A stretch of 64,000 nucleotides of DNA. It comes from Saccharopolyspora gloriosae. Its GTDB lineage: Bacteria > Actinomycetota > Actinomycetes > Mycobacteriales > Pseudonocardiaceae. A model generated the notes under the pieces. It did not search any database and was not told the origin of the DNA. It was given only the letters and a program-made list of their open reading frames with translations. Of this stretch, positions 27,800 through 51,072 are shown piece after piece (within the stretch, counting starts at the first letter, position 1; each line of letters begins with the position of its first letter). The DNA lies in assembly GCF_022828475.1 (NCBI RefSeq), contig NZ_CP059557.1, positions 5,627,470 through 5,691,469 of the forward strand, in the 5' to 3' direction. A program made the position numbers and the translations under genes.

Positions 27800-28277
27800 T
27801 CTCGAAGCCGGGGGCGGTGCTCGCTCTTCCCACCGCTCACCGCCCCCGGCCCCCGCCTGGAGTGAACGGACCCTTCGACCAAACTCGTTGGACAAACGGT
27901 CCGCTCACTCCATCCCACCTCCCCCACATCCACGCCGTACAGAGGTCACGTTCCCGAGTGAACGGACCCTTCGACCAAACTGGCTGGACGAACGGTCCGC
28001 TCACTCCATCCGGCCCGACGAACGGTCCGTTCGCACTCCGCTGCCGACGGCGAGGCCGCGGGTGGATCACTTTTGCACTACGGCTGAGTAATGGATCGAC
28101 CCGTCCAGGCGCTCAGGAACGTCCGGGGCACGGCACTCCGAGCGACGGAGCGAAGTTCGCTCCCTTCGCAATCCCTTGCACCACAACGAGATTCGATCGC
28201 CCGGACATGCCCGGCAAGGATCACCTCGGGCGACGGCGACCTGGGGAAGCCGCTGTGCAGGCGGTTAAGGTGAGCCG
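27800..28277. repeat. intergenic region with two full 49-bp palindromes and a half copy
   Basis: There is no gene between metE and the methyltransferase. Full palindromic elements lie at 27860-27910 and 27956-28006; a right-arm half copy (GACGAACGGTCCGTTCG) lies at 28018-28034. The first begins 61 bp after the metE stop. Arms here carry GACCCTTCGACC instead of the usual GACCGTTCGTCC, so the pair is slightly diverged from the family consensus. Nothing recognisable is seen in 28040-28277 apart from the promoter space of the methyltransferase. Confidence 0.9.
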
Positions 28278-28898
28278 GTGGCTGGGGAGTTCTGGAATCA
28301 CAACGTGCACTACCACCGGCTCGTGCTCGACACGGTCCCGGACGGATGCGGCAAGGCTCTTGACGTCGGATGCGGCGACGGGTTGCTGGTGCGCAAGCTG
28401 GCGGCGCGGGCGAACCGCGTCACGGGGATCGACCGCTCCCGCAGGATGATCCGGGAGGCCCGGCGGGCCAGCATCAACCTCAGTAATGTGTCCTATGTGG
28501 ACTCTGATTTCGTGGACTTCGAGGCGAAGGAGCGCGGCGGCGAATACGGGTTCATCAGCAGCGTCGCCGCGCTGCACCACATGGACTTCACCTCCGCGCT
28601 CACCGGCATGGCCCGACTGCTCGCCCCCGGCGGACGCCTGGTGCTCATCGGCCTGGCACGGCACCATACGCCACTCGACTGGGCGTGCGACATCGCGGCG
28701 ATTCCGGCGCACCGCATCCTCGCCCGTCGCCACGGCGGCGTCACCGAACCTCCCGACCTACCCACTCGGGACCCGGCGATGACCTGGGACCAGGTGCGCC
28801 ATGCCGCGCGAGACCTGCTGCCCGGCTCCCGGTACCGACGGCTGCTGCTCTGGCGCTACGCCCTCACCTGGCAGAAGCCCGAGCCGGCATCCAGCTGA
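28278..28898 (+). CDS. class I SAM-dependent methyltransferase
   Basis: A 206-aa Rossmann-fold methyltransferase. Motif I KALDVGCGDGLLVRKLA (about residues 26-42) binds SAM; VTGIDRSRRMI is the acidic-loop strand and ARLLAPGGRLVLIGLAR motif III. The substrate is unknown; the helical insert after HHTPLDWACDIA is of the small-molecule type. GTG 28278 is used. The stop codon TGA at 28896-28898 is followed immediately by a family palindrome. Confidence 0.88.
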   Translation: MAGEFWNHNVHYHRLVLDTVPDGCGKALDVGCGDGLLVRKLAARANRVTGIDRSRRMIREARRASINLSNVSYVDSDFVDFEAKERGGEYGFISSVAALHHMDFTSALTGMARLLAPGGRLVLIGLARHHTPLDWACDIAAIPAHRILARRHGGVTEPPDLPTRDPAMTWDQVRHAARDLLPGSRYRRLLLWRYALTWQKPEPASS

Positions 28899-29033
28899 AG
28901 TGAACGGACCGTTCGCCCAATCCAGCTGGACGAACGGTCCGCTCACTCCACCGACCCCCCGCGCCGGCCGAGCGGTCCGGAACGAGTGAACGGACCGTTC
29001 GCCCAATGCGCTTGGACGAACGGTCCGTTCACT
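28899..29033. repeat. two 49-bp palindromes between convergent genes
   Basis: Elements at 28899-28947 and 28985-29033. The first starts at the base after the methyltransferase stop; the second ends 17 bp before the stop of the minus-strand marR. Left arm AGTGAACGGACCGTTCG; right arm CGAACGGTCCGTTCACT (first copy CGCTCACT). Confidence 0.95.
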
Positions 29034-29050
29034 TCAGCGGATCAGCCGGA

Positions 29051-29500
29051 TCAGGCTCGGGCGGTGACGCGGTGGAAGGCGTCGACGAGGTCGCTGAGCT
29101 CCGGCACCTGTTCGGCCTCGGCGAGGGACTTTTCGAGTGCCGCATCGTGGGTGGGGCGGGCCTGCTCGAGCAGGGCGCGGCCGTCGTCGGTGAGCTCGGT
29201 GTAGATGCCGCGTCGGTCGTCCTTGCACAGGATCCGGGCGAGCAGGCCGCGATCTTCGAGCCTGGTCACGAGCCTGGTCGTGGCGCTGCCGCTGAGCGCA
29301 GCGGCACGGCTGAGCTGCTGCATCCGCATGTGCCAACCGTCCTGGCGGCTGAGCGCGTCGAGCACGGTGTACTCGACGACGGACAGGCCGTGGCCGGTAC
29401 TCAGCGCCTTCTCCAGCGCGGTTTCCAGCATTCCGTGCAGCGCGGCGAGCGTGCGCCAGCCTTGCGCGCGCACTTCGACCGCGTCGTCGGCGATACCCAC
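29051..29500 (-). CDS. MarR family transcriptional regulator
   Basis: A 149-aa winged-helix repressor. The HTH spans about residues 55-80 (MQQLSRAAALSGSATTRLVTRLEDRGLL) and the wing CKDDRRGIYTELTDDG follows. GTG 29500 has AGGAGG 6-7 nt upstream. It is divergent from an SDR gene, and the shared 204-bp promoter region has operator-like repeats, so it probably represses the SDR and itself. The inducer is unknown. Confidence 0.92.
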   Translation of the reverse strand: MGIADDAVEVRAQGWRTLAALHGMLETALEKALSTGHGLSVVEYTVLDALSRQDGWHMRMQQLSRAAALSGSATTRLVTRLEDRGLLARILCKDDRRGIYTELTDDGRALLEQARPTHDAALEKSLAEAEQVPELSDLVDAFHRVTARA

Positions 29501-29564
29501 TCGCCACCTCCTGCCAGCGAGCCCCCGCCACCGGTGAGCTCAGTCTCTCCGCTCAGCCTAGCAG

Positions 29565-29614
29565 CTTGCGCAGATAGCAAGCGCCTGCAACTATTTACCA
29601 GGCGCGTGCAACTA
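29565..29614. promoter_or_regulatory. candidate MarR operator region
   Basis: In the marR-SDR divergent promoter: an inverted repeat CTTGC-N7-GCAAG (29565-29581), an overlapping inverted repeat GCGCCTG-N11-CAGGCGC (29581-29605), and a direct repeat TGCAACTA at 29586 and 29607, spaced 21 bp (two helical turns). This stretch is more AT-rich than its surroundings. The operator role is inferred. Confidence 0.55.
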
Positions 29615-29704
29615 CCTGTTCGAGCATGGTTTCACCGCGCACTCCGCATCCGAAGGACCTGAGATGGGCATCCGACGGGGACCTCACGAGGAAAGCGAGC
29701 ATCG

Positions 29705-30493
29705 ATGAACACCGACATGTCCGGCCGCACGGCGCTGGTCACCGGCTCCACCAGCGGAATCGGCCAGGCGATCGCCGCGAGCTTCGCCCGCGCCGGAGCC
29801 GACGTCGTGGTCAACGGCAGGTCCCGCGAACGAGTCGACAGAACCGTCGACGCCCTGCGCGCCGAGACCGGCGGCAACGTACGCGGGATCGCCGCGGACA
29901 TCGGCACCGCCGAGGGCGCTGAGACGCTGTTCGCCGAACTGCCCGACGTGGACGTCCTGGTGAACAACGCCGGGATCTTCTCCGCCACCCCGGTATTCGA
30001 GATCAGCGACGCCGAGTGGAGCCGATTCTTCGAGGTCAACGTGCTGTCCGGAGTGCGCCTCGCCCGGCACTACACACCGCGCATGGTGCAGCGCGGCTGG
30101 GGACGAGTGATCTTCATCAGCAGCGAGTCCTCGATCTTCATCCCGACCGAGATGGTGCACTACGGGATGACGAAGACAGCCCAGCTCTCCGTGGCGCGCG
30201 GCATGGCGCAGGAGGTCAAGGGCACCGGTGTCACCGTGAACAGCGTGCTGCCCGGGCCGACGCTCACCCCCGGCGTCGCCGAGTTCATCGGCAGCCGGGT
30301 CGGCCCGGACGTTCCGTTCGAGGAGGCCGAACGCCGCTTCATCGCCGAGGAACGCCCGAGTTCCCTGCTGGGACGGCTGATCCGGCCGGAAGAGGTGGCG
30401 AACCTGGTGCTCTACGCCGGTTCCGAAGCGGGCTCCGCGACCACCGGCGCCGCGCTGCGCGTCGACGGCGGAGTCGCCCCGTCGCTGACCTGA
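29705..30493 (+). CDS. short-chain dehydrogenase/reductase
   Basis: A 262-aa classical SDR that oxidises or reduces a carbonyl/alcohol with NAD(P). The cofactor motif TGSTSGIGQAIA lies at about 14-25, NNAG at about 88-91, and the catalytic Ser...Tyr-x3-Lys is present as ISSESSIFIPTEMVHYGMTK; the PG motif follows in NSVLPGPTLTPG. It is divergent from marR. The frameshifted hydrolase gene ends convergently 53 bp downstream. Confidence 0.93.
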   Translation: MNTDMSGRTALVTGSTSGIGQAIAASFARAGADVVVNGRSRERVDRTVDALRAETGGNVRGIAADIGTAEGAETLFAELPDVDVLVNNAGIFSATPVFEISDAEWSRFFEVNVLSGVRLARHYTPRMVQRGWGRVIFISSESSIFIPTEMVHYGMTKTAQLSVARGMAQEVKGTGVTVNSVLPGPTLTPGVAEFIGSRVGPDVPFEEAERRFIAEERPSSLLGRLIRPEEVANLVLYAGSEAGSATTGAALRVDGGVAPSLT

Positions 30494-30545
30494 GCACGAC
30501 GGACGACGCGGGGCTCGCGAACCGGATCGCGCCCCGCGTCCAGCG

Positions 30546-31477
30546 TCACGCCGGGCGGCACTCGGAGAGGAACGGACGCATGGCGTCCAGCATCCCCGGC
30601 GCGTCCTCTTCGGGACGTAGTGCCCGGCGCCCGGCAGCACCACGCTGGTGACGTGCTCGGCGACGGAGCCGATCTCGTCGGCCATGAGCTCCCCGACGGA
30701 TTCGGAACCCGCGATCGTCAGCACCGGCAAGGTCAGTTTCGTCTTCTTGCGCACCAGGTTCTGTTCGATGATCGCGTCGATGGCGCGGTAGTAGTCGAAG
30801 CTCGCCCGCAACGCCTCAGGGTCGCGAAGCGCGTCGACGTACACCTGAACGGCGTGCTCGGGAATCGCCGTCGGTGTCGCGGCCTTCGTCGCGAACTGGT
30901 GCCCGAAGTAGATCTCCTCCCGCCCCTGGACCAGGCGCTCGTTCACGCCGAAGGCGCGATTGAAGTTGAAGTGCCACAACAGATCACTCGTCCGGCGATC
31001 GGCCAGCAGCGGCGGCGATTCGGCCAAGCCCGGCACGATCGCCTCGCACAGCACGGCACGTTCCAGCACCTCGGGGTGATCCGCGGCCAGCGCGTAGCCG
31101 GTCCACACGCCGATGTCGTGCGCGACGAGCGCGAACCGCTCATGCCCCAGAGCTCGCATCAGGCCGACCAGGTCGGCCGCCAGCGTCCCGGAGTCATAGC
31201 CGGTGGCGGGCTTGTCGGTCAGGTTCACGCCGCGCGGATCCACGGCCACGACGGAGAACCGTTCGGCCAGCTCCGGCAGCACGAATCGCCACTGGTACCA
31301 GTTCTGCGGCCACCCGCCGAGCACCAGCAGCGGCGGGCCTTGCCCACCGGCGAGGTAGTGCGTTCGGAGGCCGTCGACCGTGGCGTAGTGGTCGTGGAAG
31401 ACGTCGGTGAAACCCGCCGGGAGCCGGGGCGCGGACTCGATTGATCCGGGGCCGTGCGGGACTTCGGATGAGGACAC
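30546..31477 (-). pseudogene. epoxide hydrolase/haloalkanoate-type alpha/beta hydrolase with a one-base frameshift
   Basis: From GTG 31477 (GGAG upstream) the frame reads a normal alpha/beta hydrolase: oxyanion region GGWPQNWYQW, nucleophile Asp in VAHDIGVWTGYALAA, and the catalytic His in LPGAGHYVP. Directly after HYVP the frame goes wrong (KRTRRGCWTPCVRSS), while the next frame continues EEDAPGMLDAMRPFLSECRPA and stops at 30546. Restoring one base in the CCCG run at 30611-30614 gives exactly 311 codons, the normal length. In the uncorrected frame translation would run antisense through the SDR gene to 29684. It is divergent from the TetR gene. It may be a real pseudogene or a sequencing/assembly error; catalytic residues survive on the 5-prime side. 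Confidence 0.8.
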
Positions 31478-31586
31478 GAGGAAACTCCGTGTTCGACGAA
31501 GGAAGAAGGGGACCGGCCGGTGCCGCACGGCGCCGAGCGGACGGCTCACCTTGGTGGCCGACCCGGCTGGTGCGACCTACACTAGC

Positions 31587-31612
31587 CATGTTGGAACGAT
31601 CGGTCAAACATG
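31587..31612. promoter_or_regulatory. candidate TetR operator (26-bp palindrome)
   Basis: An imperfect palindrome with outer arms CATGTT / AACATG, inner GGA...TCx and a central CGATCG-like core; 11 of 13 base pairs match. It lies between the hydrolase (start 31477) and tetR (start 31631), the classic position for autoregulation and control of the divergent gene. Confidence 0.6.
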
Positions 31613-31630
31613 GTCGAGGGGAGTGCTCGA

Positions 31631-32221
31631 ATGGCAGGACGCAAGCAGTTCGACGTCGACACCGCCCTGGACGGCGCGATGCACGTGTTCTGGGAGCACG
31701 GCTACGCCGAGGCCAGCCTGAACAGGCTGCTCACCGCCACCGGACTCGGACGCGGCTCGCTGTACTCCACTTTCGGCGGCAAGGAGCAGCTGTTCCGGCT
31801 GAGCCTCCAGCGCTACGCGGAACTGTTCGGCTCCCGGCTCACGCAAGCCCTGCGGGAGCACCCCGACGATCCGGTCGCCGCGATCCGCGCCTTCTACGAC
31901 GCCGTGCTGGATCGCCTCGCGAACCCGGAGGTTCCCGCGGGCTGCCTGATCACCCGGCTCGCCGCCGAAACCGCCGAACTCGACGAGCCGGTGCGCGACG
32001 CCGTCGGGAACGCGCTCAACGAGCAGCGCGCCGAGGTGCGGGCGGCACTGCGACCGGCGGAGAAGTCGCTGTCCGGCAAGGAACTCGACGACCTGGCGCT
32101 GTACGTGTCGGCGGTGAACCAGTCGCTGACGGTGCTGCACGTCGCCGGGACCCCGCTGGAGGAGCTGCGCACCGTCGCCGACATGGCCCACTCGCACCTG
32201 GCCGCCGCCCTGCACGGCTGA
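31631..32221 (+). CDS. TetR family transcriptional regulator
   Basis: A 196-aa repressor. The N-terminal HTH is DTALDGAMHVFWEHGYAEASLNRLLTATGLGRGSLYSTFGGKEQLF, typical of the YxxFxxKExLF TetR class, and the C-terminal ligand domain is helical. ATG 31631 (GAGGGGAG upstream) is preferred to 31610. It is divergent from the hydrolase gene and probably controls it through the palindrome at 31587-31612. Confidence 0.93.
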   Translation: MAGRKQFDVDTALDGAMHVFWEHGYAEASLNRLLTATGLGRGSLYSTFGGKEQLFRLSLQRYAELFGSRLTQALREHPDDPVAAIRAFYDAVLDRLANPEVPAGCLITRLAAETAELDEPVRDAVGNALNEQRAEVRAALRPAEKSLSGKELDDLALYVSAVNQSLTVLHVAGTPLEELRTVADMAHSHLAAALHG

Positions 32222-32247
32222 ACCCGGCCGGCGCCCACATCGTTCGG

Positions 32248-32415
32248 AGTGAACGGACCGTTCGCCCAATCCCACTGGACGAACGGTCCGTTCACTCCAC
32301 CAACTCGTCGCCGGCGGCCCCCGGCTGACGCACCGCACCGTCGCCTCGCGCCGCCGATTCGGGTTGAGTGAACGGACCGTTCGTCCCACTGGATCGGACG
32401 AACGGTCCGTTCACT
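32248..32415. repeat. two 49-bp palindromes after tetR
   Basis: Elements at 32248-32296 (27 bp after the tetR stop) and 32367-32415. Arms AGTGAACGGACCGTTCG / CGAACGGTCCGTTCACT. In the second copy the spacer-side bases are CCCACTGGATCGG, so the inner arm is shorter. Confidence 0.95.
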
Positions 32416-32561
32416 CCCGTCGGAGCCGCGCGCCGGTGCTGGGCGTTCGTCCGAACGAGTGTGGGGTGCGGCGCTCTTGCTCTGTGGAATCTGACGCAGT
32501 GTTCAGGCATGGAAGGTGATGAGCTGAGTTCACCACGAAGTCGGGACCTCGGAGGAACGCC

Positions 32562-33176
32562 ATGCACCGCGAGCAGCTCGCCACGATCGACCGCGACGAC
32601 CGGCGGTGCCCCGCACCGGAGCCGAACCGCCACGTCACCGTTGCACGCGATGCGAACAGCCACCTCACCCGCGAGCAGGAACTGGAAGTGGCGCTGCGCA
32701 CCGCGGGCGACTTCCGCACGTCCATCTCCGGGGCCGACACCAAGGCCGGCCTGTTGATCTCCGCGCTCGGCATCTGCCTCGGCGGCGCGGGCAAGGCGAT
32801 GGCCACGCCGCCCCCAGCGGTGCTGGACGGCCTGCCGAAGTTCACCTCGCTCGGGCTGCTGGCGTTGCTGCTGTGCGGCGCGCTGGGCGCACTGCTCTAC
32901 CTCACCGCAGTGCTCACGCCGCTCACCCGCGCACCTTCCGGCGGGCCGAACCTGTTCGCATTCCCCACCTTCCCGCATCAGCGGGAAGCGCACGTCCACA
33001 CGGCCACCACGGCGGAACTGTGCGCGCAGGCGTGGCTGCAGGCGGAGACGCTCGCGCACATCGCGGGCACCAAGTACCGGCGGCTGCGCAACGCGCTGCG
33101 CTGCTTCTGCGCCGCGCTGCTGGCCTTCCTGCTGTGGACGGGACTGCTCATGTTCCTGCCCGTCGCGGGAAGCTGA
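32562..33176 (+). CDS. Pycsar-type membrane effector (DUF5706-like)
   Basis: A 204-aa protein with a cytoplasmic N-terminus of about 55 residues, the motif ISGADTKAGLLISALGI (Asp59, Lys61), a first membrane helix about 61-82, a second about 93-117, and a C-terminal helix about 178-202 after the amphipathic stretch AWLQAETLAHIAGTKYRRLRNA. D-x-KA at the head of a membrane helix plus a late alanine-rich helix and Lys-x2-xLR is the pattern of Pycsar effector TM proteins (PF18967), which in phage defence depolarise the membrane when a cyclic pyrimidine nucleotide is made. No nucleotide cyclase is adjacent. GGAGG lies upstream of ATG 32562. It is convergent with a Crp/Fnr gene 17 bp away. The family assignment is from pattern, not a search. 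Confidence 0.7.
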   Translation: MHREQLATIDRDDRRCPAPEPNRHVTVARDANSHLTREQELEVALRTAGDFRTSISGADTKAGLLISALGICLGGAGKAMATPPPAVLDGLPKFTSLGLLALLLCGALGALLYLTAVLTPLTRAPSGGPNLFAFPTFPHQREAHVHTATTAELCAQAWLQAETLAHIAGTKYRRLRNALRCFCAALLAFLLWTGLLMFLPVAGS

Positions 33177-33187
33177 ACGGGCCGTTC
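33175..33187. repeat. half copy of the palindromic repeat overlapping a stop codon
   Basis: GAACGG-G-CCGTTC, the core of one arm of the 49-bp family, starts inside the TGA of the membrane-effector gene and fills most of the 17-bp gap before the Crp/Fnr stop. Confidence 0.6.
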
Positions 33188-33193
33188 CCGAGC

Positions 33194-33853
33194 TCACTCA
33201 TTCCGTTTCGCCGCCTCGGCGAGCAGGTCACCTCGCAGCACGACGATCCGGCGGCGCTGCGTGCTGACCGCGCCGGACTCCCGCAACTCGCGTAACGCGC
33301 GAGCCACCGCCTCGCGGGACGCGCTCGTCGCACTCGCGAGTTCCGCCTGGCTCAACGGGATCGCGATCGTGTGCCGACCGGCACCGTCGGGAATCCCGTG
33401 CTCCCGCACCAGTTCCAGCAGCAACCGGGCGAGCCGCTCCGAAACCCCGGACGAGGCGAACTCCACGCGGTGCCGATCCGACTCCCGCATCCGGGCGACG
33501 ACCCTGGTGAGCAGTTCGAACATCGCCTCCGGATGCTCGTGCAGGAACCGGCGGAAGTCTCCGCCGGACACGACGTCCGCCTCCACCTGTTCCAGCGCGG
33601 TCACCGTGGCGCCGCGCGGTTCTCCGTCGATCGCGGCGAAATCGCCGATCATCGAACCTGGTCCGCGAATCGCCAGCATCGCCTCGGTTCCCCGCACCGA
33701 CATCGACCACACCTTGACCCGGCCGCTGCGAATGAGCAGCACGTGGTCCGACTCGTCCCCCACCGAGAACACGACGGCGCTCGCTCGCCACCGCCGCCGC
33801 CTCGATACCGACCGGAACGCGGCCACCGCATCCGCACTCCACCGCTCGCTCAT
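33194..33853 (-). CDS. Crp/Fnr family regulator with cyclic-nucleotide-binding domain
   Basis: A 219-aa transcription factor. The beta-roll cNMP domain spans about 10-125 and contains SGRVKVWSMSVRGTEAMLAIRGPGSMIGDFAAIDGEPRGATV; the phosphate-binding cassette reads IGDF...EPRGAT, where CRP has GE...RSA, so ligand binding is plausible but altered. The Crp HTH is in LSQAELASATSASREAVARALRELRESGAV. ATG 33853 is chosen over TTG 33877 (GGGATGGGG upstream). It is convergent with the Pycsar-type effector, which suggests the two respond to the same nucleotide signal, but this is inference. Confidence 0.9.
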   Translation of the reverse strand: MSERWSADAVAAFRSVSRRRRWRASAVVFSVGDESDHVLLIRSGRVKVWSMSVRGTEAMLAIRGPGSMIGDFAAIDGEPRGATVTALEQVEADVVSGGDFRRFLHEHPEAMFELLTRVVARMRESDRHRVEFASSGVSERLARLLLELVREHGIPDGAGRHTIAIPLSQAELASATSASREAVARALRELRESGAVSTQRRRIVVLRGDLLAEAAKRNE

Positions 33854-33975
33854 GAACGCCCCCATCCCGCAAGTCAACGATTACGCGGCACCGTTCGTCG
33901 TCCGCGAACCTCCCTCGCAACGCTCTCGGTCGTGTTCTCCTGATGCTCAGCGACCGCAAACCGGGGGAGTACATC

Positions 33976-34602
33976 ATGATCGTGGACGCGCTCGACCAAG
34001 CTTGGCAGGCCTGGGCGCAACTCGGCACGCATCTCGGCGCTGAACAATGGGATCGGCCGACACGGCTGGAAGACTGGACGGTGCGGCACGTCTTCGCGCA
34101 CTACGCGGACATTCCAGGCGTGCTCGGAGCCGCGCTGAACGGCGAGGGCGCCCCGGAGTCCGGGGCTGCGCCGACTTTCGCGGACGCGGCGGAACTGCTG
34201 GCGTTCATGCAACGCCCCGGCGGGGTCGCGCGCACCGAAGCCGACCGGATCCGCGATGCGGGCATCGCCGACTCCCGTTCCACCGACGAACTCGTCGCGC
34301 AGTTCACCGAAGTGGCGCCGAGGACGATCGAGCGACTGCGCGGCCGAGACCTCGGCACGCTGGTCCCCTACTCCGAACTCGGCACCGTGGCGGCCGGCGA
34401 GGCGCTGCGCATCCAGTTGATGGAGGCGGTGGTGCACTACCTCGACTTGGCCACCGCGCTGGAACTGCCCAAACCCGGTCCGCCGGCGGGTGAACCCATG
34501 CGGGTGACCGCTGCGCTGCTCGCCGCCATCGCTGACCCGGTGCACCTCATCGAAGCGGCCACCGGGCGCAGCGACACCGGGATCTTCCCCGTCCTGCGCT
34601 GA
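33976..34602 (+). CDS. DinB-type / maleylpyruvate isomerase-N family protein
   Basis: A 208-aa protein of the mycothiol-dependent-type DinB/TIGR03086 superfamily: EQWDRPTRLEDWTVRHVFAHYADIPGVLGAAL is the typical first helices with WxxxxxxxDWTVxxVxxHY, and a later His in LMEAVVHYLDLATAL completes the putative metal site. Such proteins are often thiol transferases using mycothiol, but many have unknown substrates. ATG 33976 has GGGGGAG upstream; the ATG at 33943 is less likely. It is divergent from the Crp/Fnr gene (about 120 bp shared promoter). Confidence 0.8.
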   Translation: MIVDALDQAWQAWAQLGTHLGAEQWDRPTRLEDWTVRHVFAHYADIPGVLGAALNGEGAPESGAAPTFADAAELLAFMQRPGGVARTEADRIRDAGIADSRSTDELVAQFTEVAPRTIERLRGRDLGTLVPYSELGTVAAGEALRIQLMEAVVHYLDLATALELPKPGPPAGEPMRVTAALLAAIADPVHLIEAATGRSDTGIFPVLR

Positions 34603-34659
34603 GAAAGCGGCGATGCTGTGCTCAGCCCGCGCGGGTAGGCGGTCCGACGGACCTCCGGC

Positions 34660-35592: not shown

Positions 35593-35963
35593 CAGCTCGT
35601 CGCCTCCGACGCCGCGGCCTCGAACGGCAGCGGCTCGCCGCTGGTGCGCAGCCGGTGCCACAGCACGACCTTGCGCTCCGCGAAGAAGGCGCCGAACGGG
35701 ATGGTGCCCGCCAGCAGGACCAGCAGCATCCGGCCGTAGGGGATGCGCAGCTGCACGGTGGTGACCAGCGCGACGAACAGGTACACGATGTAGAGGTAGC
35801 CGTGGCCGATGCCGATCGTGGTCGTCCACTGGTCGCCCAGCAGCTGCATGGACGAGCCCTCGGGCCACAAGTACTTCAACACCATGGTCAGGCACAGCAA
35901 GATGAGCAGCACCGCTGTCACGTACGCCATGACCCGGTAGAAGGCCAGAACGCCAGGCTTCAC
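35592..35963 (-). CDS. DUF3817 membrane protein
   Basis: A 123-aa membrane protein with three or four helices and the pattern [26 protein letters not shown]...[23 protein letters not shown]...[14 protein letters not shown], typical of DUF3817 (integral membrane, YdzA-like). Function unknown. GTG 35963 (GAGGGA 6 nt upstream) is preferred to the far upstream frame start at 36071. It is the first gene of a two-gene operon with ctaB, which hints at a role in haem or cytochrome biogenesis. Confidence 0.85.
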
Positions 35964-36104
35964 CACAAATCCCTCAATCCCGCCGCTGCCACGAACACCG
36001 GAAACGACCGTACGCCACCGCTTCCGCAGCGTTGCGCGTGACCTGGCGAGACAGTGGTGCCGACCACGCACGCACGACGTCGGGGCCGCTCCGGCGCCCC
36101 GGAC

Positions 36105-37211
36105 TCAGCCAGCGCCCGGCAACCCGTATGCGCCCGCGATCAACTCGTAGGAACGCAGCTTCGACGTCCGGTCGTACATGTTCGCGGTGAGCATCAGCTC
36201 GTCGACCTCGGCGCTCTGCCGCAGCGCCTCCAGCTCGGCGTGCACCGATTCCGGAGTGCCGTAGATCGCGTCGGCCAGCCAGCTGTCCACGACGCTCTGC
36301 TCCATCTCCGAGTACCGGTACTCGCGGGCCTCCTGCGGGCTGGGCATGCGGCCGGGGTTGCCGCTGCGCAGCCGCAACATGCTCAGCGCCATCGGACGGG
36401 CCAGATCCAGCGCCTCCTCCTCCGTGTCGGCGGCGATCGCCTGCGCGCCGATCATCGAATAGGGCTCGTCGAGCACCTCCGACGGCTGGAAAGACTGCCG
36501 GTAGAGGTCCAGTGCGGGCAGCGTGTTGCGCGCCGAGAAGTGGTGGGCGAACGCGAACGGCAAGCCCAGCGCGCCCGCGACCTGTGCGCTGAACCCGCTG
36601 GAACCCAGCAGCCACACCGGCGGTGCCTGACCGTGCGGAATCGAGTTCACCTCGGCGTAAGGATGGTCGGCGGTGAAGCCGTCGCCGAGGAAGCGCAGCA
36701 GCTCACCGAGCTGCTGCGGGAAATCGTCGACCGACAGCGGGCCGCTGGTGCGGCGCAGCGCGCGGGCCGTCCCTTGATCAGTGCCCGGGGCGCGGCCGAT
36801 GCCGAGGTCGATTCGGCCCGGATGCAACGCCTGCAAGGTGCCGAACTGCTCCGCGACGACCAGCGGCGCGTGGTTGGGCAGCATCACTCCGCCGGAACCG
36901 AGGCGCAGCGTGCTCGTAGCCGCTGCGAGGTGCGCGATCACCACCGGTGGCGAGGAGCTCGCGATCCCCGGCATGCCGTGGTGCTCGGCGACCCACATCC
37001 GGTGGAAGCCCCAGCGTTCGGCCGCCTGCGCGAGCTCCGTCGTGGTGGCCAGCGCCTCACCCGGCGTGGTCTCCACGCCGACGGGGGCGAGGTCGAGGAT
37101 CGACAGCGGAACGGCCGACCGCCCCCGTGCCGTGCCGCGAATCGGGTCGGTCTGGTCCGCGTGACCGGGTGCCCCGAGGGCGGTGCGGTCCGGGTTGGCG
37201 ACAGTGTCCAT
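36105..37211 (-). CDS. LLM class flavin-dependent oxidoreductase
   Basis: A 368-aa bacterial-luciferase-like monooxygenase using reduced flavin and O2 on an unknown substrate. Family features: [19 protein letters not shown] at the first strand, [22 protein letters not shown], then [42 protein letters not shown], which is the MsnO8/CE1758-type signature. ATG 37211 has GGGA 7 nt before it; the longer frame through the palindromic repeats (to 37448) is spurious. No obvious operon partner. Confidence 0.93.
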
Positions 37212-37290
37212 CGCCGTTCCCAACCATCCGATCACCACGCTTTGTTCCCACCCCGCACCTGTGCCAGTGATCACAGGCCGACGGCCGCGA

Positions 37291-37554
37291 AGTGAGTGAA
37301 CGGACCGTTCGCCCAATCCCACTGGACGAACGGTCCGTTCACTCACTACCAGCCCCACAGCAGCACCCCGCAGCACCGCCGGCCGGGCGGCCTCGGATGA
37401 AGTGAACGGACCGTTCGTCCAAGCCGGCTGGACGAACGGTCCGTTCACTCACTCCCACCCGGGGCGCGCGGTTTGAGGTGGCGCCGTCGATCAGGTTCGA
37501 GGTCGAGTGGACGGACCGTTCGTCCGAACTCGCTGGACGAACGGTCCGTTCACT
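37291..37554. repeat. three 49-57 bp palindromes between the LLM and monooxygenase genes
   Basis: Elements at 37291-37347 (extended perfect arms beginning AGTGAGTGAACGG), 37401-37449 and 37506-37554 (AGTGGACGG variant). The last is 42 bp beyond the monooxygenase stop on the minus strand, the same stop-codon association seen at other sites. Confidence 0.95.
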
Positions 37555-37596
37555 TCGAATGCCGGGGTGCGGGGTGAGCCAGGCGCGGTCGGCGGC

Positions 37597-38940
37597 TCAG
37601 GCGCGGTCGGCGGTGAGGGCGTAGTCGGGGTGCGCGGCGGCTCGCGGGGTGTTGCGGTACCGGAGGACCGAGTCGCGGATGTCGCCCGCGCGGACCGCCC
37701 CGTTGGACAGCAACGAGGACATGATGCCGTGGGTGTGCTCGGTGCCGCCTTGGAAGTACACGCCGCCGTTGACGTCGCCGGTGGTGCGCACCCGGTAGTC
37801 GCGGTCCACCTCGACCTGCCCGTCGGCGTCGCGCAGGCATTCGTCCCAGGTGCGGCCGAGGAACCGGCCGGGGTCGCCGGGGCTGCATCCGGTGGCGTAG
37901 ACGAGCACGTCGGAGTCGAGCACCATGCGTTCGCCGGTGGGCAGGAACTCGACGGTGACCGCGACGCCGTCGGCGGTCGTTTCGACGTCGACGACGCGGG
38001 AGGCGTTGAGCATCCGCAGCCGCTCCTTGCCCTGCACCTTCTCCTGGTAGGCGCGGGCGTAGAGCTGTTCGATGAGTTCGAGGTCGACCACCGAGTAGTT
38101 CGTGTTGCGGTGGTAGTCCATGAGCATCTGCTTCACCCCGGAGGGCGAGCTGTAGAAGTGATCGACCGCGTCCGGGTCGAAGATGCGGTTCGCGAACGGG
38201 CTGTCGTCCGCGGGGGTGTGTCCGTAGCGGCTGAAGACCGAGCACACTTCCGCGTCGGGGAACGAGCGGTGCAGGTAGTCGGTGACCTCGGCGGCGCTCT
38301 GCCCGGCTCCGACGATGGTGAACCGGCGCGGATCGGTGCCGTCGAGCTCACCGATGCGGTGCATCAGTTCGAGGTTGTGCCACACGTGGTCGCCGAGTTC
38401 CGCGCCGGGCGGCAGGCTCGCTTCGAGCCCCACGGCGACGACGATGTTGCGCGTCAGGTGCGCGGTGACCTGGCCGGAGCCGTGCCGCACGAGCACCTCG
38501 AACACGTCCCCGTCCTGCACGGGCCGCACGTCGATGACTTCGGCGTCGTACTGCGCGAGGTGTTCGAGCCGGCTCGCGGCCCATTCCAGGTAGTCGTGGT
38601 ACTCGACGCGGGTGGGGAACATCGTCTTGTGGTTGATGAAGTCGACCAGCCGGCCCTTGTCCTGCAAGTACGACAGGAAGGAGAAGTCGCTGGCGGGCTC
38701 GCGCATCGTCACTAGGTCTTTGAGGAACGAGACCTGCATGGTGGTGCCCTCGATGAGCATTCCGCGGTGCCAGCCGAATCTCGGTTTGCGTTCCACGAAG
38801 CTCACGTCGAGCCGTTCGTACTCGCCGCAGCGGCGGTTGTGTTCCTCGACGGCTACGGCCAGCGCTAAGTTGGAGGGGCCGAAGCCGATGCCCAGGATGT
38901 CCTGGACATGGCCTTGCACGTGGGTCGGAGCCGCAGACAC
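37597..38940 (-). CDS. L-ornithine N5-monooxygenase (SidA/PvdA family)
   Basis: A 447-aa FAD/NADPH enzyme that hydroxylates the side-chain amine of ornithine (or lysine) to give the hydroxamate precursor of a siderophore. FAD site GIGFGPSNLALAVA (about 17-30), conserved FVERKPRFGWHRGMLIEGTTMQVSFLKDL, NADPH site VGAGQSAAEV (211-215 in GAGQS), and the C-terminal ATGCSPGDPG and GVYFQGGTEHTHGIMSSLLSN, all diagnostic. GTG 38940 is the start. It lies 63 bp after the ferric-siderophore reductase gene in the same direction and closes the siderophore locus; ornithine is favoured over lysine by family resemblance and the NRPS context. Confidence 0.94.
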   Translation of the reverse strand: MSAAPTHVQGHVQDILGIGFGPSNLALAVAVEEHNRRCGEYERLDVSFVERKPRFGWHRGMLIEGTTMQVSFLKDLVTMREPASDFSFLSYLQDKGRLVDFINHKTMFPTRVEYHDYLEWAASRLEHLAQYDAEVIDVRPVQDGDVFEVLVRHGSGQVTAHLTRNIVVAVGLEASLPPGAELGDHVWHNLELMHRIGELDGTDPRRFTIVGAGQSAAEVTDYLHRSFPDAEVCSVFSRYGHTPADDSPFANRIFDPDAVDHFYSSPSGVKQMLMDYHRNTNYSVVDLELIEQLYARAYQEKVQGKERLRMLNASRVVDVETTADGVAVTVEFLPTGERMVLDSDVLVYATGCSPGDPGRFLGRTWDECLRDADGQVEVDRDYRVRTTGDVNGGVYFQGGTEHTHGIMSSLLSNGAVRAGDIRDSVLRYRNTPRAAAHPDYALTADRA

Positions 38941-39003
38941 GGTTGTCCCTTCGCCGGTACCCGGTCGGTGTCGCGCTCGGGCAGGGTGGAATCCGCAGAC
39001 CGC

Positions 39004-39840
39004 TCAGTCGCGGTCGTGGTTGTATCGATCGTGGTAGTCGGTTTCGGCCATTCCGGCTTTCCAGTAGCCGATGGCCAGCACCGATCGGGCGTCGAATCCG
39101 CGGTCCTCCCGCAGATGGCGGCGGATGCCGCGGACGATCCCTGATTCACCGGAGACCCAGGCCGACACATCGTGTCCGTCGGCGGGGATGTCGAGGTCGC
39201 GGACCGCGTCGGAGAGCAGCGTGGAGCGTCCTGCGGGCACGCCGTCGCGGTGCAGCCAGGTCATCCGCATGTTCGGTGGGCATTCGATGTGCTGCTGGTC
39301 GCTGCTGCCCGCGACTTCCAGGAAGACCTGGCCGCGAGCGGTCACCGGCAGCTCCTCGATGATCGAGGCGATGCCGGGCATCGCGGTCTCGTCACCGACC
39401 AGCAGGTACCAGTCGGCTTCCCGGCAGGTCCGGCCGCCGGGTCCGAGCACGCCGAGGTAGTCGCCCGGTTCGGCTCCGCGCGCCCAGGACGCGGCGACGC
39501 CGTGATCTCCGTGCATGACGAAGTCGATGTCGAGTTCGCCGCGTCGTTCGTCGTAGCGGCGCACCGTGTAGGTGCGCATGGTGGGCCGTTCGTGCGCTTC
39601 GGGCCACACGTAGCGGCCTTCGTCGTTGAGGACGGGAAGCACCGGGCGATGCTGGCCTGGTTGCGGGACGAACACCTTCACGTTCGGCCCGCTGTGTTGC
39701 TCCCGGAACCCGACGAGTTCGTCCCCACCGAGGGTGATGCGCCGCATCGAAGGCGACAGCTCCGCAGTGCGGAGCACCTCCAGCGTGCGGGTCGGTGGAC
39801 GGCGGTGTTCGCTGCGTCGGGGTCGGTCCGCTGTCGTCAT
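39004..39840 (-). CDS. siderophore-interacting FAD protein (ferric-siderophore reductase)
   Basis: A 278-aa SIP/ViuB-type reductase that releases iron from the imported siderophore in the cytoplasm. The flavin motif RTYTV is at 89-93, followed by DIDFVMHGDHGVAASWA and GPGG, and the NAD(P)-side ends with VLAIGYWKAGMAE, the family hallmark. ATG 39840. An iron box lies 45 bp upstream (39885-39903), so transcription should rise in iron limitation, together with the monooxygenase downstream. Confidence 0.94.
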   Translation of the reverse strand: MTTADRPRRSEHRRPPTRTLEVLRTAELSPSMRRITLGGDELVGFREQHSGPNVKVFVPQPGQHRPVLPVLNDEGRYVWPEAHERPTMRTYTVRRYDERRGELDIDFVMHGDHGVAASWARGAEPGDYLGVLGPGGRTCREADWYLLVGDETAMPGIASIIEELPVTARGQVFLEVAGSSDQQHIECPPNMRMTWLHRDGVPAGRSTLLSDAVRDLDIPADGHDVSAWVSGESGIVRGIRRHLREDRGFDARSVLAIGYWKAGMAETDYHDRYNHDRD

Positions 39841-39884
39841 CGGCCCTGGCGTTCCTTCCTCACTGTCTCCAGAACGATCACTGG

Positions 39885-39903
39885 AATTAAGGCTAGCCTA
39901 ACC
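39885..39903 (-). promoter_or_regulatory. iron box (IdeR/DmdR-type) before the reductase gene
   Basis: TTAAGGCTAGCCTAACCAT matches the actinobacterial iron-box consensus TTAGGTTAGGCTAACCTAA at most positions, including the central GGCTA...CCTAACC. It is in the promoter position of the minus-strand reductase-monooxygenase pair. Confidence 0.8.
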
Positions 39904-39974
39904 ATAGAACGCCGGGATGTCTTCCCCACGGTGGGCCAGATCTCGCCCGGAAACTCCGTCGAGCGGCCGTGCCG

Positions 39975-41396
39975 TCAGCTCCGCGCGGCCGGGACCGCCC
40001 CGGTTCCACTGCCCTCGTCCGCGCCCTTACCGGCATCGGCGCGCAGTGCGGCAGGATTCTTGATTCTCAGCGCCACCAACACACCGAGCAACGCGAATCC
40101 GGCGGAGACGAGCATCGCCACGTGGTACACGCCGAGCGAGCCGGAAGCTCCCGCTCCGCCGATGGCGAGCACTCCCGCCGTGACGGCCACGCCGAGCGCG
40201 GAACCGACCTGGCGCTGCACGTTGAACAGGGTGGACGCGCCACCGGTGGCGGTGGCGCTGATCGTCGCGAACGCCACGACCTGCAATTCGATCGAGGCGG
40301 CCCCGACGAAGAATCCGGAGGCGAACTGCACCGCGCCCGCCGACAGCGGGCCGGTCACGAGGTTCATCGCAGCGAACGAGGCGGCGGCGCCGAGCATCGA
40401 CAACGCGATCAGCAGCCGCGGTCCCAATCTCGGATGCGCCCAGGTCACCGCCTGCGAGGCCACCATCAGCCCGACGGCCTTCGGCAGCGTCACCAGGCCC
40501 GTTTCCCACGGCGACGCGCCCATGCCGGTCTGGTACATCAGCGTGAATCCGTAGAGCGTCCCGAGGAATCCGGCCACGCACGTCGCCAAGATGAGGCTGG
40601 CCCGCCGGAACGAGGCGTCACCGAACAACCGCACGTCCAGCATCGGCTGCCGGGATCGCAGCTGGGACACGACGAGCGCGATGAGGCAGCCCAGGCCCGC
40701 CACCCCGGCCACGTAGAAGTGCGGAGAGTCCGGCCCGCGCATGGACACCGCGTCCAGCGCGTACATCAGCAGGCCCAGGCCCGGCGCGGCCAGCGCGAAT
40801 CCGAGCAGGTCGAACCGCTTGTGCACGGACTCGACGTGTTCGCGCAGCCGCAGCGCGCCGTAGACCAGCGCCAGCACCCCGAACGGCACGTTCACGAAGA
40901 AGCCCCACCGCCAGGTGAGCTGTTCGACGAACAACCCGCCGAGCACCGGGCCGAGCGCGGGCGCGACCGCGGTCGGGATCACCAGCACCCGGGAGAGCTT
41001 GATCCGTTCCTGCGGCGGGTAGGCGCGGAACAGCATGGTCAGCGCCACCGGGCTCAGCACACCACCGCCCGCGCCCTGCACCACTCTGGCCAGGGTGAGC
41101 TGCGTCAGGTCCTGCGCAGCCCCGCACATCGCCGAGGCCAGGACGAACGAGCCGAACGCGGTCAGGAAGACCTTCTTGGTGCCGAACCTGTCGCCCAGCC
41201 AGCCCGAGACGGGGATGCACACCGCGAGGCTGACCAGGTAGCCGATGTTGATGGCGCTGGTCGCGCTCGGCGGCACCCCGAACTCGGCGCCGATGGCCGG
41301 CAGCGCCACGTTGACGATGGTGGCGTCCATGCCGTTCATGAACATCGCGGCGACGTAGACGATGCAGACCGCGACTCTGGGGTCGTTCACACGCAC
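39975..41396 (-). CDS. MFS transporter, DHA2 (EmrB/QacA) type, probable siderophore exporter
   Basis: A 473-aa, 14-helix drug:H+ antiporter-family permease: MFMNGMDATIVNVALPAIGAEF (motif D1), the motif A loop GWLGDRFGTKKVFL, and motif C LGPVLGGLFVEQLTWRWGFFVNVP. Its place between mbtH and the reductase suggests export of the finished siderophore. GTG 41396 or GTG 41390 is the likely start; the frame extending to 41507 runs into an intergenic repeat relic. No siderophore ABC importer is present in the window. Confidence 0.9.
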   Translation of the reverse strand: MRVNDPRVAVCIVYVAAMFMNGMDATIVNVALPAIGAEFGVPPSATSAINIGYLVSLAVCIPVSGWLGDRFGTKKVFLTAFGSFVLASAMCGAAQDLTQLTLARVVQGAGGGVLSPVALTMLFRAYPPQERIKLSRVLVIPTAVAPALGPVLGGLFVEQLTWRWGFFVNVPFGVLALVYGALRLREHVESVHKRFDLLGFALAAPGLGLLMYALDAVSMRGPDSPHFYVAGVAGLGCLIALVVSQLRSRQPMLDVRLFGDASFRRASLILATCVAGFLGTLYGFTLMYQTGMGASPWETGLVTLPKAVGLMVASQAVTWAHPRLGPRLLIALSMLGAAASFAAMNLVTGPLSAGAVQFASGFFVGAASIELQVVAFATISATATGGASTLFNVQRQVGSALGVAVTAGVLAIGGAGASGSLGVYHVAMLVSAGFALLGVLVALRIKNPAALRADAGKGADEGSGTGAVPAARS

Positions 41397-41524
41397 TGTT
41401 GGTTCCCGACTTAGGAGTTCTTGCAGAACTGTCTCGGTCGTTGTCTTGTCAGCAACGGAGCGGACGAGCAGCGGCCCCGAGCGAAACGACCACCGGCGGG
41501 TCCTCAACGGCGTCCTCGAGGACG

Positions 41525-41617
41525 GCAGCCCGGACCCGGATTTCGCTGCGCGGGGAGCTACAGGAGAGATCGACCCCGCAGCGAGGAAGCCGCTGAGGTT
41601 CCGCTACCCGACCACTC
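41525..41617 (-). repeat. diverged copy of the stop-codon-anchored hairpin element (copy 3)
   Basis: Reading on the minus strand, 14 bp after the mbtH stop, is the motif GGGTAGCGGAACCTCAG (one base different from the other copies), then an inverted repeat with arms TCGCTGCGGGG (about 41566-41577) and CCCCGCGCAGCGA (about 41550-41538). It lacks the inner CTTTTTCCC arms and the tandem array of copies 1 and 2. It separates mbtH from the MFS gene. Confidence 0.65.
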
Positions 41618-41629
41618 GGCAAGGAGTTC

Positions 41630-41823
41630 TTACGCGCCGTTGCGGACTGGACGGATGTCCGTCCAGTTCACCTCGATGTGGTCCAGGCAGGACCGTCTGT
41701 CCGCGGGGCCGTGCGCGATCGTCCAGCCATCGGGCACCTTGATCCGTTCCGGCCACAGCGAGAACTGGTCCTCGTCGTTGACCAGGGCGTAGAACGAACC
41801 GTCGGGGTCGTCGAACGGATTGC

Positions 41824-41827
<4 letters not shown>
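41630..41827 (-). CDS. mbtH: MbtH-like protein
   Basis: A 65-aa NRPS accessory protein that binds and activates adenylation domains. The signature is complete: [24 protein letters not shown]...[30 protein letters not shown], with the invariant S/L-W-P and the two conserved Trp. ATG 41827 overlaps the NRPS stop (ATGA), so it is translated together with the synthetase. Confidence 0.97.
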
Positions 41828-48933
<7,106 letters not shown>

Positions 48934-48959
48934 CGTTCTCCCCCACGGGACACGGACAA

Positions 48960-48978
48960 AGTAAGGCTAACCTTATTT
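48960..48978 (-). promoter_or_regulatory. iron box before the NRPS gene
   Basis: AGTAAGGCTAACCTTATTT, with the near-perfect core TAAGGCTAACCTTA (48962-48975), lies 27 bp upstream of the NRPS start. IdeR/DmdR would repress NRPS-mbtH, and perhaps the genes beyond, when iron is plentiful. Confidence 0.85.
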
Positions 48979-49105
48979 CACCCGCAGCCCGGTGACCAGA
49001 ACCCCCACCGCGTGCGTTACCTCTCAGCCCCACCACCGCCGCTCACCGGCAACCTCCCCCACCCCGAGCGCCGCCCCCACCCGGCCGGCGGCACCGACGC
49101 AACGG

Positions 49106-49436
49106 AGTGAACGGACCGTTCGTCCAACGGGATTGGGCAAACGGTCCGCTCACTCCCACCGTCCTCCGCACCGACACCGGTACCCCGCCGATACTGCGAG
49201 CTCAAGTGAACGGACCGTTCGTCCAACCAGCTTGGGCAAACGGTCCGCTCACTCCGGCAGCACGGGCTCGGCTCGATGAGTGAACGGACTGTTCGTCCAA
49301 CGGGATTGGGTAAACGGTCCGCTCACTCCGAAAGCCTTGCGCGTCGGCGCCGGATCCGTGGGTTTCAGCTGGCGGTCGCTGAGGAAGAGTGAACGGACCG
49401 TTCGTCCAGTGAGATGGGACGAACGGTCCGTTCACT
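49106..49436. repeat. cluster of four 49-bp palindromes between NRPS and GNAT genes
   Basis: Elements at 49106-49154, 49205-49253, 49279-49327 and 49388-49436 in a 525-bp gap with no gene. The last is 21 bp beyond the GNAT stop. Three copies share a variant right arm GGGCAAACGGTCCGCTCACT (the third GGGTAAACGG), so they look like local duplicates; the fourth has the standard CGAACGGTCCGTTCACT. Confidence 0.95.
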
Positions 49437-49457
49437 CCGAAAGAATCGCGCCGCCGG

Positions 49458-50774
49458 TCAGCGGGTGTGGACCATGAGGGCGGAGTTCTTGCCGGGCAGG
49501 CCCACCTCGCGAGACCGGTCGAAGCCGGCCTTCCCGAACGCCGCCACCGAAGCTCCATTGTGGACATTGGGTTCGGCGACGACGCGCACACACTCCGGGT
49601 CCGCAGCGAGCAGGCCGCGAGCAACCGCGTTCAGCAGGGACGAACCGAGACCGCGGCCGATGGCGTCCTTCTCCCCGATCGCGATGTGCACGCCGAGATC
49701 CCGCGGGTGCAGCGGGTAGCAGGCGGCGAGCTTGTCTCGGACCACCCGGTACAGCTCCACGTACGCGACCTCGCGGCCGTCGCGACTCACGATGCACGGC
49801 ACCGAATGCTCGCCGCCGAGCTGCGAGCTCAGTTCGTCCCGCCAACGCTGCAACGACCACGCCTGGTTCCAGTTGACCGCGACGTGATCCTCGTTCATCC
49901 AGCGGTGCACGAGCGCGGCGTCCTCCGACTCCAGCGCGACCGGCCGCAACGACCAACCCTCGTCCAACACCGGAACCGGAACCCCGGGCACCCCGTCCGC
50001 CGACACTTCGCGCAGCGGGTTCGACACCTCGTAGCGCACCGGCGCCACCGCCACCTTGCCCTCGGCCAAGTAGCGCAGACCCGACCCGTTGAGCACCGCC
50101 AGATCCGTCAAGGTGGCGCTGTTCAGCCAATGCCGCACCACCCGCTCAGTGTCCGGGTAGGTCTCGGCGAGCGCGGCCAGGTCGTGCGCCAGTGCCGTCA
50201 ACAGCTCCGACTCGTCCGCCACGCCGCGCAGCCCGAACCGGCCGATGACGGCCAGCGAACGGCGGGTCAGCAACCGTGCCGTCACCTCGTCCAAGTCGGC
50301 ACGGCCATCGAGGTTGCGCAGCGCGGGCGTCACGGTGCTCTCGATGTGCGAAGCGAGCCACCGCCGCGCTTCGTCCTGCGACGACACGCCTTGCCCGAGC
50401 ACATCGACATCGTCGTTGCCCGCCAGCGGATCGACCGCGCCGGTGCGCACCGCGTGCAGCAGCCAGTCGAGCAGCGTTCCCGCCCCTTCAGAGTTGATCG
50501 GGGCGTCAGCGGTGGCCCGGCCGCGCGCATCCGCCGAGCAGGCCGCGGCCAGCAGCGCGGAGTCCGCGACGGCACCGGAATCGGCCACCCGGATCGGGCC
50601 GAAACCGTGCGCGCCCGTCGGTGAGCGGTAGGTGACTTCGGTGGTGAACCGGAGCGGTCCGACCGTCACCTTCAACGGTCCCGGCGCGACCGGCGTGTGC
50701 GTCTCCGCCAGCCACCTTCGCAACAGCACCGCGGCCCGCGGATCCGCCTGCACGTTCTCGGTCACACCTGCCAC
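49458..50774 (-). CDS. GNAT acetyltransferase with long N-terminal domain, probable hydroxyornithine acylation
   Basis: 438 aa. The C-terminal 190 residues are an IucB/MbtK-like siderophore acetyltransferase: WSLRPVALESEDAALVHRWMNEDHVAVNW, VAYVELYRVVRD, HPRDLGVHIAIGEKDAIGRGLGSSLL (acetyl-CoA loop GRGLG). About 240 N-terminal residues (for example TEVTYRSPTGAHGFGPI) have no domain I can name; they vaguely resemble parts of IucA/IucC-type synthetases. It probably N5-acylates hydroxyornithine before the NRPS uses it. GTG 50774. A candidate iron box (50796-50814) sits just upstream, placing it in the iron regulon with the locus. Confidence 0.8.
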   Translation of the reverse strand: MAGVTENVQADPRAAVLLRRWLAETHTPVAPGPLKVTVGPLRFTTEVTYRSPTGAHGFGPIRVADSGAVADSALLAAACSADARGRATADAPINSEGAGTLLDWLLHAVRTGAVDPLAGNDDVDVLGQGVSSQDEARRWLASHIESTVTPALRNLDGRADLDEVTARLLTRRSLAVIGRFGLRGVADESELLTALAHDLAALAETYPDTERVVRHWLNSATLTDLAVLNGSGLRYLAEGKVAVAPVRYEVSNPLREVSADGVPGVPVPVLDEGWSLRPVALESEDAALVHRWMNEDHVAVNWNQAWSLQRWRDELSSQLGGEHSVPCIVSRDGREVAYVELYRVVRDKLAACYPLHPRDLGVHIAIGEKDAIGRGLGSSLLNAVARGLLAADPECVRVVAEPNVHNGASVAAFGKAGFDRSREVGLPGKNSALMVHTR

Positions 50775-50795
50775 ACGTCACCCCTTCACGCCGAG

Positions 50796-50814
50796 TTGGG
50801 AAAGCCGACCCTAA
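50796..50814 (-). promoter_or_regulatory. weak iron box before the GNAT gene
   Basis: On the minus strand TTAGGGTCGGCTTTCCCAA agrees with the iron-box consensus at 14 of 19 positions, 22 bp upstream of the GNAT start. Confidence 0.6.
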
Positions 50815-50884
50815 CTCAGCCGACAGGGTGGCGAACCCCTGTCGCCCGGTGCCCCGCGTCACCTCACCGTCACCGCGCTTGGTG

Positions 50885-51038
50885 AGTGAACGGACCGTTC
50901 GCCCAATCCCGTGGGACGAACGGTCCGTTCACTCCACCCGAGCTCCTCGGCCGGGTGGTGGCGCCGTCAGCTGCGGGGATCCGGGGGCGAGTGAACGGAC
51001 CGTTGGTCCAAGCGGATTGGGCGAACGGTCCGTTCACT
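50885..51038. repeat. two 49-bp palindromes after the ABC ATPase gene
   Basis: Elements at 50885-50933 and 50990-51038 (the latter with GTTGGTCC in the left arm). The second ends 34 bp past the stop of the minus-strand ATPase gene. There is no gene in the 298-bp gap. Confidence 0.95.
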
Positions 51039-51072
51039 TCGTCACGTCGTCGCGGCGCCGAGCGTGGCGGGG

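Follow-up and report, generated by a model that had tools for sequence, protein, structure and literature searches.

The DNA considered here is a window of 64 kb from the chromosome of the soil actinomycete Saccharopolyspora gloriosae (positions 5,627,470-5,691,469 of genome G000, a single contig of 6,878,695 bases with dnaA at its start), and it holds a family of 49-bp palindromic elements placed behind genes. Fifteen full elements form six arrays, given here in window coordinates and without strand. Array 1 (27861..27909 and 27957..28005) begins 61 bp after the stop codon of a metE-like gene (25511-27799 +), and a single arm, or half copy, lies behind it at 28020..28032. Array 2 occupies a convergent gap, where its first element (28899..28947) immediately follows the stop of a methyltransferase gene (28278-28898 +) and a MarR-type gene (29051-29500 -) has its stop 17 bp from the second (28985..29033). 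Array 3 (32248..32296 and 32367..32415) follows a TetR-type gene (31631-32221 +) at 26 bp from its stop. The other single arm (33175..33187), also in a convergent gap, overlaps the stop of a gene for a small protein (32562-33176 +) in which Pfam detects a PycTM (Pycsar effector) domain. Array 4 has three elements (37295..37343, 37401..37449 and 37506..37554), and a lysine/ornithine monooxygenase gene (37597-38919 -) has its stop 42 bp from the last of them. Array 5 has four, of which the first three (49106..49154, 49205..49253 and 49279..49327) carry right-arm variants (G.T in the leading-strand sense) and the fourth (49388..49436) lies near a GNAT acetyltransferase gene (49458-50774 -), at 21 bp from its stop. 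Array 6 (50885..50933 and 50990..51038) is followed at 34 bp by the stop of an ABC ATPase gene (51073-51840 -).

The initial annotation had listed fifteen full copies and two half copies, and all of them are present and placed as claimed; twelve of its fifteen start positions are exact, two are off by 1 bp and the one given as 37291 is off by 4 bp (actual 37295). It had also put the copy nearest to a gene end 0-61 bp from a stop codon, with which our own gene calls agree at the six gaps with full copies (61, 0, 26, 42, 21 and 34 bp), and had seen full copies only between 27.8 and 51.1 kb; beyond these limits the window contains only single-arm matches with one or two mismatches. The number of copies exceeds chance: GAACGGNCCGTTC with up to two mismatches is matched 45 times, against a mean of 6.1 and a maximum of 14 in 100 shuffles.

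An element consists of two arms of 16-17 bp that form an inverted repeat and are separated by a variable loop; the consensus is AGTGAACGGACCGTTCG TCCAA N5 TTGGA CGAACGGTCCGTTCACT, and the five-base loop often differs even within one array. It had been suggested at the outset that a copy can form one large or two small hairpins. The large one holds, being the predicted structure in all six RNA folds of five window copies (-19 to -40 kcal/mol), whereas the two small ones do not hold as a general feature. Self-palindromic arms were considered as the conserved structure and rejected, as the arms are non-palindromic in several other lineages. The two arms co-vary across lineages, with good support at columns 3, 10, 11 and 13 and support by single sequences at columns 2, 7 and 9, in a collection of 218 distinct sequences, drawn from nine element sets of seven genera (two additional sets contributed nothing), for which the finder itself required 12-13 of the 16 columns to be paired. 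Within G000 compensated changes are few, namely 2 of 172 within an arm and 14 of 245 across arms. A terminator consensus finds five terminator-like sites at 36000-52000 of the window, with none of the nine elements among them, and Rfam gives three matches up to E 1 at 27000-51500, all far below the gathering scores.

The placement at gene 3' ends, which the initial annotation had read from the window, is strongly supported in the 1.264 Mb of G000 examined (the window and 60 stretches of 20 kb, with profile searches and with genes called by a simple script of our own) and in its relatives. This sample contains 169 main-type elements and 31 further hits that are diverged or partial; 188 of these 200 hits span at least 43 bp, and not one of the 200 lies inside a called gene, in a sample that is 80% coding. 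Main-type elements are present between the genes of 30 of the 204 convergent pairs, 35 of the 651 tandem pairs and 7 of the 193 divergent pairs, and at 33 of the 35 tandem sites the array is closer to the upstream stop (median 27 bp) than to the downstream start (146 bp). The exact arms that stand isolated outside elements, ten in the 1.264 Mb, are intergenic without exception. In the stretches fetched from relatives none of 235 elements is inside a gene (121 tandem, 88 convergent, 25 divergent, one at an edge), and the same is true of the 66 elements of G018, a genome from another genus of the Pseudonocardiaceae (34 tandem, 30 convergent, one divergent, one at an edge).

Hairpins of other sequence are found at 3' ends that lack an element. 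A strong GC hairpin is scored at 162 of 526 such ends, at a median of 21 nt past the stop, in a count where one hairpin in a convergent gap may serve both ends and where some are probably far relatives of the repeat family. Sampling 200 element-less 3' ends gives a share of 19.5%, compared with 3.3% for a sample of 150 divergent 5' flanks and 1.5% for shuffled sequence. A single gap was compared in G005, a genome of the same genus, and there an unrelated GC hairpin stands instead of the two copies present in G000. Therefore, the elements sit where G000 places its end hairpins, and these GC hairpins would terminate transcription or protect 3' ends of RNA. Terminators of Streptomyces are described, in the consulted sections of PMC12207403, as low in U and most stable in their hairpins. 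The elements resemble such low-U terminators of high-GC actinomycetes in being long, stable GC hairpins tens of bases past the stop; they differ in belonging to one sequence family that is arrayed at many ends and phased, and a part in termination would be their putative role. The anchoring of arrays to stops, the GC hairpins at many other 3' ends, the unrelated hairpin in G005 and the predicted stable single hairpin could all be expected if the elements were ordinary 3'-end RNA hairpins and nothing else, that is, U-less terminators or 3' stabilisers spread by gene conversion, with any regular spacing a by-product of the gain and loss of tandem units. We consider this explanation unlikely, yet to be taken seriously, in view of the spacing and the strand polarity described below.

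The family has about 250 elements in the 6.9 Mb of G000. The exact arm GTGAACGGACCGTTCG occurs there 229 times (128 + 101), is present in all six genomes of the genus (41 to 229 per genome) and in 3 of 30 other Pseudonocardiaceae genomes (one per genus), and is absent from the 24 genomes examined from other families in the order. As a control, the reversed arm gives no match. A 47-bp pattern with up to two mismatches matches 253 places in G000, the identical 253 on both strands as befits a palindrome, and 105-130 places in three other genomes sampled from the genus. Among 120 genomes of the family, 13 are matched, including the four sampled from the genus, with one place each in G008 and G101. 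This pattern undercounts other genera, because a pattern fitted to G018 and G008 found 157 + 113 arm matches in G018. The same build of 47-49 bp occurs in some other Pseudonocardiaceae: genera g14, g58, g4 and g8 have arm sequences of their own, and window-like arms are seen in g6 and g26. In some loci of G018 (L149, L152 and L147) the arms run head to tail at a pitch of 30 bp, with eight in a row at 1218193-1218417 and one inverted arm closing the row. Element density in G000 is much higher at 5.63-5.87 Mb than at 5.87-6.10 Mb, a figure biased by the choice of stretches, since some of those in G000, and those of the relatives, were picked for holding matches. The syntenic stretches of G001 (0.69-0.92 Mb) and G003 (5.22-5.34 Mb), taken by themselves, hold many elements too.

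Sites are fixed between species. In gaps near the window, compared within the genus, the occupancy of orthologous gaps is concordant in 114 of 115 cases for G001, 60 of 60 for G002, 53 of 53 for G003 and 2 of 3 for G005, and the sole discordant gap of G001 corresponds to a diverged element in G000. What changes is copy number; one gap holds three copies in G000, four in G002, six in G001 and one in G003. One array of G001 contains an exactly duplicated spacer, and among 94 spacers 15 homologous pairs lie within arrays and 11 join distant arrays, against one hit with shuffled spacers. Therefore, arrays grow in place, and units seem to move between existing arrays, an exchange that may be the cause of the likeness of copies.

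Biologists have known extragenic palindromes for decades and still debate what they are for, with RNA ends, DNA topology and mobility as the proposals. Among them, REPINs (repetitive extragenic palindromic doublets forming hairpins) are inverted repeats in opposite orientation that are able to fold together. The parts of PMC3733652 used here describe such GTAG- or CGTC-tagged palindromes, whose oppositely oriented repeats can fold together, and report that REP (repetitive extragenic palindromic) repeats show this preference for gaps as well and often contain G-T pairs in their stems; arrays of them, called BIMEs (bacterial interspersed mosaic elements), are described in PMC8266576, as far as its consulted sections go. 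The likeness to the REP/BIME of enterobacteria and pseudomonads lies in being high-copy extragenic palindromes, single or arrayed, behind genes and in convergent gaps. The elements differ in being a nearly perfect palindrome of 49 bp whose flank profile has no conserved one-sided tetranucleotide head of the GTAG/CGTC type, only a weak and roughly symmetrical extension, and in their helix-quantised spacing and, in some genomes, a polarity of the arms that follows the replichore. They also differ from REPINs in the lack of a tag tetranucleotide and of any sign of dispersal to new sites. We found no name for the family in the literature, in agreement with the initial annotation, although a search with sequence strings is too unspecific to exclude one; the parts examined of PMC3610266, PMC3364876, PMC12306157 and PMC6749651 do not describe it.

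The mobility that the initial annotation had in mind, together with its proposed search for a Y1/REP-type transposase (RAYT, REP-associated tyrosine transposase), finds little in these genomes. Non-autonomous REP/RAYT-type repeats, copied as single-stranded DNA at the fork and for that reason polarised by replichore, could account for the polarity of arm variants, for the spacer units common to distant arrays and for the hundreds of copies. However, the species agree, near the window, on which orthologous gaps hold elements, while copy number shifts by tandem duplication, the arms are nearly symmetrical and have no one-sided head, and Y1_Tnp has no match in G000-G003 (other transposase families were not searched), unlike RAYT-associated REP/BIME. 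One match in G004 and two in G005 belong to the two genomes of the genus with the fewest exact main-type arms. Mobility of this type is therefore unsupported by the fixed sites and the four genomes without a match, and we hold it to be very improbable.

The feature is real, large and conserved, and its surprising part is helical phasing. The centre-to-centre distances of adjacent copies (below 200 bp) in G000 peak near 63.5, 73.5, 85, 94.5, 107 and 118-120 bp, with gaps between the peaks, and are quantised in steps of about 11.1 bp (at 11.16 bp and with n = 94 the Rayleigh z is 25.6, which none of 2000 jitter nulls reaches). Phasing persists when each array contributes a single spacing (mean z 18.8, n = 53) and when each spacer-homology cluster does so (mean z 18.6, n = 71), and facing arms of adjacent copies are separated by nearly whole multiples of 11.0 bp. 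No such phase is seen in the negative control of stop-to-first-element distances (z 1.8, n = 89) or in element-to-start distances (z 0.7, n = 32). When the period and phase of G000 are imposed on the relatives, G001 gives p 3e-6 (n = 94), and the pooled test on the relatives gives p 1.7e-6, with orthologous arrays that are not independent between species. An RNA hairpin would have no reason to follow helical spacing, whereas two proteins on one face of the DNA would. The persistence of phasing per array and per cluster speaks against elements that act as RNA hairpins only, as duplication alone would not give phasing.

The second property is the polarity of mismatched arms. In G000, where pairs were counted in the 166 of 169 main elements that are exactly 49 bp long, the mismatches read in the leading-strand sense are G.T 142, A.C 39, G.G 34 and C.C 10; by site, 36 are G.T and 10 A.C with seven ties (sign test 8e-5). 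The replichore border was set at 3.60 Mb from GC skew, and an earlier value of 3.44 Mb differs by three single-copy sites at 3.51 Mb. In G018 the ratio by site is 20 to 4 with five ties (p 8e-4), based on 61 pattern-found elements as compared with 66 in the placement count, and this is the ratio to be used, since the ratio by copy (82 to 9) is inflated by ten of the 61 that are near-identical copies of one array. GC skew in G018 flips sign between stretches at 3.30 and 3.42 Mb, and the exact arms flip orientation at this change (among the matches listed, 23 plus before 3.32 Mb and 4 minus after 3.42 Mb). Polarity is weaker in the sisters G001 (144:76) and G003 (19:13). A strand bias in the raw arm listing was discarded as a listing artefact, with reverse matches in the same stretches.

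Selection at the RNA level on the transcribed strand was tried as the cause of polarity and finds no support: in the gene sense, tandem sites have 92 G.U and 63 A.C and convergent sites (by nearest gene) 44 and 73, and the replichore fits polarity better than the transcript. Polarity tracks the replichore beside lagging-strand genes too (8 sites against 3 in G000, which are small numbers), again in disfavour of a role as RNA hairpins alone. The cause may be damage to the lagging-strand template that is linked to hairpins, or selection that favours a stable hairpin on this template. For polarity taken by itself, a mutational strand bias in hairpins of the lagging-strand template, free of any function of its own and compatible with every other reading, has a little under an even chance: the leading strand is richer in G + T, in the direction of the genome skew, and C>T and A>G each yield G.T pairs. 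On the other hand, the biases at fourfold sites, taken over 142 gene trios, are only 1.21 and 1.16 for C>T relative to G>A and 0.95 and 1.12 for A>G relative to T>C, far below the 142:39 in elements, with the reservation that mutation in hairpins may differ from that at fourfold sites.

The reading that we favour, with a probability of about 0.45, is that these are REP/BIME-like 3'-end hairpins whose arrays would also act on duplex DNA, probably through a putative protein. As lineage-specific extragenic palindromic repeats they would mark the 3' ends of transcription units, where a transcript from either side would fold the element into a long hairpin devoid of a U-tract, at positions otherwise taken by other GC hairpins. 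Copies would multiply in place by tandem duplication and be kept alike by exchange between arrays, and the facing arms, about whole helical turns (~11 bp) apart, could allow cooperative binding or bridging by the putative protein on one face of the helix. Arrays bound in this way might serve as a roadblock, in gene insulation or in the handling of supercoils. The placement, the predicted hairpin, the fixed sites, the changes of copy number, the phasing and, in some genomes, the strand polarity are computational results, whereas a part in termination or in protecting RNA, exchange as the source of likeness, the protein and what it does are inferred. Several results weigh against this reading. 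With period and phase fixed from G000, p is 0.11 both in G002 (n = 32) and in G003 (n = 24), whose own phasing (z 8.9) is 2.3 bp off. The phase of G018 agrees (p 0.002, a value that holds when each array contributes one spacing, n = 16), and as most of its arrays share 64-65 bp this is phase agreement and not proof of quantisation. Distances over at least two copies are unphased at 11 bp (z 0.6, n = 58; best 11.9 bp, z 10.3), therefore order is found between neighbours only. Polarity is absent in G002 (17:20, counted after leaving out two pieces with GC skew below 0.008 and elements that do not fit 49 bp). Finally, no U-tract follows the elements, the T content there being like that of the control (n = 145), and therefore classical intrinsic termination is not indicated.

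Two further readings put more weight on duplex DNA. In one, the arrays are purely sites of DNA architecture, for gyrase, for a nucleoid protein or for chromosome domains, placed behind genes merely to avoid promoters. It would agree with helical phasing, with the head-to-tail arms of G018, where neighbouring arms at the 30-bp pitch cannot pair together, and with the dense domain at 5.63-5.87 Mb and its rich syntenic counterparts in G001 and G003; yet the arrays hug stops and not gap middles, both arms change together and other GC hairpins occupy the same place, and we regard it as quite unlikely. In the other, which we think unlikely, a dedicated putative architectural protein would bind the arrays, as markers of gene 3' ends in members of a bacterial family, on one helix face in a fork-oriented way, and the arrays would represent a bacterial duplex-DNA boundary system that also forms the end hairpin of the transcript.

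Because of helical phasing, the proposed DNA-level role in the reading we favour is directly testable. Spacing that follows the helix offers a direct handle, as shifting a copy by half a turn separates function at the level of DNA from function at the level of RNA. The elements would also point to a new DNA-binding protein in this antibiotic-producing family of bacteria, and to natural 3'-end parts for high-GC hosts.

Two minor observations concern neighbouring and distant genes. Between the monooxygenase and GNAT acetyltransferase genes lies an open reading frame of 2369 amino acids with internal repeats (41824-48933 -), which we take to be similar to a nonribosomal peptide synthetase; the three genes together look like a hydroxamate siderophore cluster, and arrays 4 and 5 flank this putative cluster. 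Elsewhere in G000, at 5992295, 2948990 and 1534203, three weak matches to the DnaA profile have identical scores and lie in equal frames of 269 amino acids, perhaps three copies of a transposase helper.

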